Assembly: GCA_947481575.1 (NCBI GenBank)
Contig: CANKGV010000011.1
Span: forward strand, 1 to 64,000
Length of the DNA stretch: 64,000 bases
Direction: 5' to 3'
Source of the DNA: Alphaproteobacteria bacterium
Lineage (GTDB): Bacteria; Pseudomonadota; Alphaproteobacteria; UBA2966; CAIVPW01
Part shown: positions 45,595-47,436 of the stretch, piece after piece
Layout: every line of letters begins with the position of its first letter
How positions within the stretch are numbered: the stretch's first letter is position 1
The notes under the pieces: generated by a model
Seen by the model: the letters and a program-made list of their open reading frames with translations, nothing else
The model's database searches: none
Told to the model about the DNA's origin: nothing
Position numbers and translations under genes: made by a program

Positions 45595-47436
45595 ATGTCT
45601 AGCTCGTTCGCCAATCTCGACGACGTCGACGTCCGCGGCAAGCGCGTCCTGGTCCGGGCCGACCTGAACGTGCCGATGCGCGACGGTAGGGTCACTGACT
45701 TGACTCGGATCGAGCGCTCCGCCGAGACGGTGCGCGAGCTTATGAACAAGGGGGCGCGGGTCGTGGTGCTGTCGCACTTCGACCGCCCCAAGGGCATTCG
45801 CGTGCCGAGCATGTCGCTGCGGCCGGTGGCTGCGGCGCTTGCCCAGGCCCTCGGCGGTGGTCGCGTCAGCTTCGCCGACGACTGCGTGGGGCCCACCGCT
45901 CAGGCAGCGGTGAACAGCCTAGGAACCGGCGGCGTCGTTCTGCTCGAAAACCTTCGCTTCCACGCGGGTGAAGAGGCTAACGACCCGGCCTTCGCCAAGG
46001 CGCTGGCCGCCAACGGCGACATCTATGTGAACGACGCGTTTAGCTGCGCCCACCGTGCTCATGCATCGACCGAGGCCCTCGCGCGCCTCCTGCCTGCGGC
46101 CGCCGGCCGCAGCATGCAGGCCGAGTTGACCGCTCTGGAGAAGGCCCTCGCCGCTCCACAGCGCCCGGTCGCGGCCGTAGTCGGTGGCGCCAAGGTTTCC
46201 ACCAAGCTCGATCTCCTGGGCAACTTGATCCAGAAGGTTGACGTATTGGTGATCGGCGGCGGCATGGCCAACACGTTCTTGTTCGCTCGCGGCGTCGCCG
46301 TCGGCAAGAGCCTGTGCGAACGCGAGATGGCGGACACGGCCCGCGACATCGAACGCAAGGCGAAGGCCCGCGGCTGTGAGATTGTATTGCCCACGGACGT
46401 TGTAATCGCCGGTGAGTTCAAAGCCGGGGCGCCATCGCGCACGGTTCCCGCGGGGCAAGTGCCCCCGGACCAGATGATCCTGGACCTGGGGCCGCAGACC
46501 GCTGCCGAGATCGTCCGGCGCCTTGGGACCTGCAAGACCATCGTGTGGAACGGCCCCCTCGGCGCGTTCGAAATTCCGCCGTTCGACGCTTGCACCAATT
46601 CGGTGGCGCGCGCCGTCGCGCAGATGGTTCAGTCCGGCAAAGTCCTGGCAGTGGCGGGCGGCGGCGACACCGTTTCCGCCTTGTCCCACGCCGGCGTCGC
46701 GAGCAAGTTCTCGTACCTTTCCACCGCCGGTGGCGCATTCCTTGAGTGGCTCGAGGGCAAGGAACTGCCCGGGGTTGCCGCTCTGGCGCGCGCACAGCGG
46801 CCAGCGTCGGCCACGCCGCCGCGCCCGGTGAGCGCGCCGGTGGTGAAGCCCATCCCTGTGCCGGTTGTGACCAAGGCTACACCGCCTGCGAAGGCGGCCA
46901 CCCCAGCCAAGGCAGCAGCGCCCGCCAAGCCGGCGACCGCAAAGGCGGCCCCTGCGAAGGTGGCCCCTGCGAAGGTGGCCCCTGCGAAGGTGGCCCCTGC
47001 AAAAGCGGCCCCTGCGAAGGCGGCACCCGTTATGAAGGCCGCGGCGAAGAAGGCCGTGAAGAAGGCCGCTCCGGCAAAGAAGGCTCCAGCAAAGAAAGCC
47101 GCGCCGGCAAAAAGGGCTGCCGCGCCGAAGAAGGCCGCTGCGGCAAAGAAGCCGGGAACCAAGAAGGCGCCGATTGCGAAGGCCGCCAACAAGAAGAGTC
47201 CTGCGAAGAAGGCCGCGCTGAAGAAGAGCCCGGCCAAGAGGCCCGCCGCCAAGAGGCCCGCGCCCAAGAAGGCGCGCGCTTCCAAAGCGGCAGCTAAGTC
47301 TGTGAAGAAGTCTGCTCGCAAGGCCCCGGTTCGGGCCGCCGTGAAGAAAGGTGCCCGCAAGGCGCCCGCCAAAACACCGCGCGCTCCGGCCAAGGCCAAG
47401 CGCAAGGCAAAGGCATCGACCCGCCGCAAGAAGTAG
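45595..47436 (+). CDS. pgk: Phosphoglycerate kinase fused to a histone H1-like tail
   Basis: The 613-residue protein has a complete kinase in residues 1-397: [44 protein letters not shown] and GGGDTVSAL, ending LPGVAAL. Residues 398-613 are a Pro/Ala linker, then Lys/Ala/Pro repeats (PAKxA, KKA, PAKK) like AlgP and bacterial histone H1 proteins, ending TRRKK. Normal kinases stop near residue 400. No stop or frameshift separates the parts. A Met at residue 480 (ATG 47032) could start a free 134-residue tail, though its binding site is weak. The tail should bind nucleic acid or other polyanions. cbbL follows after 82 bases. Confidence 0.95.
46945..47019 (+). repeat. Five tandem 15-base repeats in the pgk tail
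   Basis: Five copies of G(C/T)GGCCCCTGCGAAG follow head to tail and encode (A/V)APAK (residues 451-475). Copies two and three are identical and the others differ by one to two bases. Such near-identical direct repeats could expand or contract by slippage without shifting the frame. Confidence 0.85.

Follow-up and report, generated by a model that had tools for sequence, protein, structure and literature searches.

The analyzed window, a stretch of 64,000 nucleotides from a draft genome (2.45 Mb in 47 contigs, completeness 98.7%), carries a Calvin cycle operon in which the gene for phosphoglycerate kinase (PGK) encodes a protein with a long basic C-terminal tail. Comparison with seven genomes of the same family, belonging to genera other than the source genus, demonstrated that the run of a dipeptide-epimerase-like gene, a LuxR-type regulator gene, pfk, prk, tkt, gap, pgk, cbbL, cbbS, and cbbX was syntenic in all seven. 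The Calvin cycle setting proposed in an earlier reading of the letters (the sequence-only reading) was thus borne out. The features of the locus are as follows:

40288..44521, plus strand: pfk, prk, and tkt, the upstream part of the conserved Calvin operon (annotation, synteny)
44580..45590, plus strand: gap, the upstream neighbour of pgk (annotation, synteny)
45595..47436, plus strand: pgk, a 613-codon frame encoding PGK with a histone H1-like tail, stop included in the coordinates (translation, Pfam match)
45595..46785, plus strand: PGK body, residues 1-397 (catalytic residues conserved; the only PGK in the genome)
46786..47433, plus strand: tail, residues 398-613, acid-free, rich in Lys, Ala, and Pro, predicted to be disordered, net charge +67 (composition, AlphaFold2)
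46786..46983, plus strand: proximal part of the tail, 66 residues, rich in Pro, Ala, and Val, net charge +11, linker-like (composition)
46942..47024, plus strand: 15-nt tandem repeat, 5.5 copies with 91% match, encoding APAKV/A pentapeptides (repeat search)
46984..47433, plus strand: distal part of the tail, 150 residues, net charge +56, with Lys-Lys-Ala/Pro motifs (composition)
47437..47518, plus strand: pgk-cbbL spacer, 82 nt, of family-typical length, with the cbbL Shine-Dalgarno site AAGGAG (spacer comparison)
47519..48985, plus strand: cbbL, RuBisCO large subunit, the downstream neighbour of pgk (annotation, synteny)
49019..50459, plus strand: cbbS and cbbX, the downstream part of the operon (annotation, synteny)

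Translation of 45595-47436 on the plus strand yielded 613 residues in one frame uninterrupted by a stop. The continuity of the frame claimed in the sequence-only reading therefore stands, and all of its coordinates and gaps were right: four bases separate the end of gap (45590) from the start codon of pgk, and the cbbL ATG at 47519 lies 82 nt past the pgk stop. Its central claim, that a kinase is fused to a 216-residue tail, is borne out by the frame together with the Pfam match and the composition described below. An open frame alone is weak evidence for the tail, since the Lys/Ala/Pro composition keeps two antisense frames open as well. An antisense open frame of 266 residues at 46629-47429 on the minus strand was rejected as a gene and regarded as a by-product of the Lys/Ala/Pro codons.

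The Pfam PGK family (PF00162) matched residues 8-389 over positions 1-379 of its 379-position profile (E=3.7e-148), and the score of 494 bits against a gathering cut-off of 27 places the body among full-length PGKs. Residues D23, N25, R38, H61, R64, R121, R154, K200, K204, N319, and E326 and the GGGDT motif at 355-359 were invariant in an alignment of 28 sequences (pgk and 27 homologues); we take these positions to have substrate- and nucleotide-binding (catalytic) roles. The kinase body is intact and, judging by these conserved residues, predicted to be catalytically competent. The AlphaFold2 model, based on 28 sequences, was mostly confident for the kinase, with pLDDT above 70 over most of the body, and the nearest solved structure found for it was 7zy7. 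The model of the bifunctional PGK-TIM (NF010569) scored 483 bits against a cut-off of 883, with profile positions 5-394 of 645 matched, so the protein lacks the triosephosphate isomerase part and lies outside that family. All tests made identify the enzyme as a phosphoglycerate kinase, and kinase activity is predicted. The gene at 45595-47436 is also the sole PGK copy in the draft assembly of 47 contigs, so it must presumably serve glycolysis/gluconeogenesis and the Calvin cycle alike. As a separate observation, the PGK motif encoded at 45775-45795 reads HFDRPKG; several family members have HFERPKG, and most PGKs have HFGRPKG or HLGRPKG.

The 216 residues of the tail (398-613) include 53 Lys, 14 Arg, 77 Ala, 34 Pro, 14 Val, 8 Ser, and 8 Thr, and no Asp or Glu, which gives a net charge of +67 and a pI of 12.0. 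Across all open reading frames of the window, the best 60-residue Lys-rich, acid-poor segment reached +22 in the tail compared with +5 for the next best. The tail is predicted to be disordered, with AlphaFold2 pLDDT below 50 over residues 405-429 and 431-613. The 15-nt array at 46942-47024 is likely a recent expansion, and further, more diverged repeats stand downstream of it within the tail. When similar 24-mers of the tail were compared without regard to frame, 1389 mismatches fell at codon position 3, against 830 at position 1 and 766 at position 2, the pairs compared not being independent of one another; because of this third-position excess, the tail reads as a diverged coding repeat. Its Lys codons are AAG in 47 of 53 cases, and its codon choice is similar to that of the neighbouring genes.

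The PGKs of the seven family members, which are 65-74% identical to the studied protein, end 5-16 residues past position 397. These ends are short and several of them are basic (SRSAKAAKH, IRSSKAAKH, SKAKKTA, ARGRI, and SKAAAKAPAQENLAQV). In the six relatives with a callable cbbL start, the pgk-cbbL spacers were 77, 80, 90 or 105, 45, 81, and 79 nt long, compared with 82 nt here, and the AAGGAG site before cbbL was common to most family members. Since the relatives stop near residue 397 and the downstream spacer keeps the family length, the tail can be placed inside pgk, just before its stop. Loss of the stop codon with read-through into the spacer was rejected, because a spacer of normal length follows the new stop. 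Fusion with an adjacent H1-like gene was rejected as well: none lies beside pgk in the seven syntenic relatives, the spacer holds no remnant of one, and the native downstream flank speaks against a neighbouring gene having been absorbed. The sequence-only reading had named a stop near residue 400 in relatives, accompanied by a separate H1-like gene, as the pattern that would speak against it; the stop was found, and the gene beside pgk was found in 0 of 7. The tail would thus have arisen within the gene, between the conserved PGK C-terminus and the stop, partly via expansion of the 15-nt (pentapeptide) repeat. The short basic ends of the family PGKs may have served as its seed, and duplication of the repeats would have been followed by synonymous drift that left the protein sequence basic.

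A tailed PGK was seen in the source genome only. Among approximately 110 distinct PGK C-termini that were read, each of the others ended at most 17 residues beyond position 397. In a search of 58 genomes of the class with a junction-spanning query, only the match of the source genome entered the tail without a stop; the same held among the matches listed for 299 genomes of the phylum (a species sample). In a plasmid collection, no record covered 80% of the tailed protein. The statement in the sequence-only reading that no described kinase is known to bear such a tail agrees with our search of the open-access literature, in which no PGK with a comparable H1-like tail was found. On this comparative evidence, the tail looks like a real lineage-specific addition, known from one draft genome.

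The resemblance to AlgP and histone H1 noted earlier holds in composition and predicted disorder. The tail had no match in Pfam even at E<=10, including the Hc2 model (PF07382), and the only NCBIfam histone H1-like model that it touched, NF038053 (Burkholderia type), scored 19.1 bits against a cut-off of 80 (E=0.0012). The tail is therefore H1-like in composition and predicted disorder and lies outside the curated H1-like families tested. The source genome assembly contained neither a second copy of the tail nor a free H1-like gene, and these searches found no H1-like gene in the other members of the family. Four HU/IHF-family genes are present, and a basic tail was absent from the two HU genes whose full frames were read (L175 and L178). 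The sister family in the same order has free H1-like proteins consisting almost purely of repeats (L115:1492-1965 in genome G008 and L118:1471-2070 in G009), of which that in G009 passes the Pfam HC2 model (PF07382) with 69.4 against 40 bits. In the same sister family, a BMFP-domain protein (PF04380, UbiK-like) carries a C-terminal KKAPTKKAAAKK H1-like tail (L113:1294-1850 in G014 and L123:1174-1845 in G011), which makes it another non-nucleoid domain with such a tail in this order.

Among known systems, ordinary bacterial PGKs (PF00162) share the complete domain, the active-site residues, and the place between gap and cbbL; however, the other PGKs checked end within approximately 17 residues of position 397, whereas the studied protein continues for 216. 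Additions to the PGK C-terminus are tolerated, as in the PGK-TIM of Thermotoga and the Leishmania PGK with a 63-residue extension (PMC7729029), but there they are an enzyme domain and a membrane-associated segment, respectively, and not a polycationic tail. By composition and the AlphaFold2 model, the protein is built like AlgP and PhaF: a separately folded domain is followed by a disordered C-terminal tail rich in Lys, Ala, and Pro. In Pseudomonas aeruginosa, AlgP (AlgR3) associates with polyphosphate granules and requires its tail for their spacing, and peptides of this tail bind DNA (PMC9239181). The long disordered Lys/Ala/Pro tail of AlgP is likewise compared to histone H1, but AlgP has a helical N-terminal domain, and residues 398-613 contain none of the KPAA repeats of AlgP and PhaF; the PGK tail is attached to an enzyme, and its motifs are APAK(V/A) pentads and KKAPAKK. 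The closest working model is the phasin PhaF of Pseudomonas putida: its functional domain is joined to a disordered tail of the H1 type, which wraps around DNA and links PHA granules to the nucleoid (PMC3574117). There the tail carries a phasin bound to PHA granules, and here a soluble metabolic enzyme. Chlamydial Hc2 binds DNA via Lys-rich pentamers, the number of which shifts by duplication and deletion (PMC2848022). It shares Lys/Ala pentapeptide repeats with the PGK tail, as do the H1-like proteins of Bordetella and Burkholderia (PF07382, NF038053); however, these proteins stand alone, and the PGK tail falls below the cut-offs of both models. In actinobacterial topoisomerase I, C-terminal lysine repeats raise processivity on DNA (PMC7398561); there, too, basic repeats form the tail of an enzyme, but that enzyme acts on DNA, whereas PGK has no nucleic-acid substrate.

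Taken together, we favour, at about even confidence, the reading that the gene encodes a competent Calvin cycle PGK to which a disordered polycationic tail of in-gene origin was added in this lineage, binding polyanions by its charge. With a net charge of +67 and no acidic residue, the tail would on chemical grounds almost certainly bind polyphosphate or nucleic acid in a low-salt buffer in vitro. The tail would bind DNA, RNA, ribosomes, or polyphosphate in the manner of the tails of AlgP, PhaF, and Hc2, the proximal Pro/Ala/Val-rich stretch would act as a spacer, and the only PGK of the cell would be kept in part at the nucleoid or at some other polyanion surface. A polyphosphate kinase gene is present in the source genome; together with the four HU/IHF-family genes, it indicates that the tail could find both polyphosphate and an ordinary nucleoid in the cell. 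Tethering to the nucleoid, ribosome, or polyphosphate is plausible by analogy. The bolder proposal, that an H1-like tail evolved within the gene anchors the sole PGK of an autotrophic alphaproteobacterium to the chromosome, ribosomes, or polyphosphate and makes this enzyme a polyanion or nucleoid binder as well, is put forward tentatively, as a possibility that we hold with less than even confidence. Three facts weigh against the preferred reading: the tail is known from a single draft genome, family members live without it, and it falls outside the Pfam families and far below the NF038053 cut-off. Both elements of the protein are of known kinds; their combination is new and has been seen once, in that draft genome. 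H1-like tails in bacteria are already known on nucleoid, granule, and topoisomerase proteins; if the reading is true, a tail on a soluble central-carbon enzyme would allow one to ask, in a naturally occurring case, whether a cell profits when a pathway enzyme is fixed to a polyanion surface. The locus also presents an apparently recent in-gene birth of an H1-like domain, with its flanks and relatives at hand for comparison.

It is unlikely, but deserves weighing first among the alternatives, that the tail is real and translated and has no selected role, being a tolerated by-product of replication slippage in a GC-rich, Lys/Ala-coding C-terminus. Such growth would agree with the short basic peptides at the ends of family PGKs (SKAKKTA, IRSSKAAKH, SKAAAKAPAQENLAQV), with the 15-nt tandem array, and with the occurrence of the tail in one lineage only. 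However, the lack of Asp and Glu over all 216 residues and the third-position bias of the divergence suggest that the protein was kept basic under synonymous drift, and an abundant enzyme would be unlikely to carry so strong a charge (net +67) without consequences.

We consider it very unlikely that the operon supplies an H1-like nucleoid protein, with the tail freed by proteolysis or by an internal start and acting alone. The ATG at 47032 is in frame with pgk at codon 480 and would yield a product of 134 residues, so the coordinates given for it in the sequence-only reading were right, and the source genome has no other H1-like gene, while the sister family has free ones. However, no convincing Shine-Dalgarno sequence precedes 47032: the nearest AAGG lies approximately 13 nt upstream, and this motif recurs throughout the Lys codons of the tail. 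The free 134-residue form suggested earlier thus lacks a good ribosome-binding site, and a known cleavage site was not identified. Nor is there a functional gap for a free H1-like protein to fill, because members of its own family also have no H1-like gene in these searches.

An assembly artefact, in which H1-like sequence from another place was joined into pgk, is highly improbable. Low-complexity repeats are prone to error, the draft consists of 47 contigs, and the tail is known from one genome of the genus. Nevertheless, the pgk body and cbbL lie in the same syntenic operon with family-level identities, the spacer has the family length and the AAGGAG site, the assembly holds no second copy from which the tail could have come, and the codon choice of the tail (Lys AAG 47 of 53) is similar to that of its neighbours. 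The tail is bordered on either side by native, syntenic sequence, so a chimera would require two native joins, in frame and without a stop.

Disordered repeat proteins serve as RuBisCO scaffolds in other systems. The position of pgk between gap and cbbL would suit a similar role for the tail, collecting RuBisCO or other operon enzymes into a condensate by charge, as the sequence-only reading had suggested for an acidic RuBisCO; we judge this the least probable reading of all, because CbbL is near neutral (pI 6.95, net -1) and CbbS basic (pI 8.9, net +3), the other operon partners are also neutral or basic (GAP pI 9.3, PRK pI 8.7, CbbX pI 8.9), and the tail is free of the aromatic or sticker motifs of known RuBisCO linkers.

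Several observations concern the rest of the operon. The Calvin operon begins, in all seven family members as well, with the gene for a phosphofructokinase (PF00365; 403 residues, 40288-41499 here). No gene for a fructose-bisphosphatase turned up from that point to cbbX; a pyrophosphate-dependent phosphofructokinase run in reverse may be a candidate substitute for the phosphatase. Downstream of cbbX, 50481-51068 encodes a 195-residue protein that matched no Pfam family, and frames approximately 30% similar to it, a weak similarity, occupy the same place in three relatives. Directly upstream of the operon, 38327-40035 contains the dipeptide-epimerase-like gene of the enolase superfamily and the gene for the LuxR-type response regulator, in the same position in all seven relatives, and this regulator is a candidate for control of the Calvin operon.
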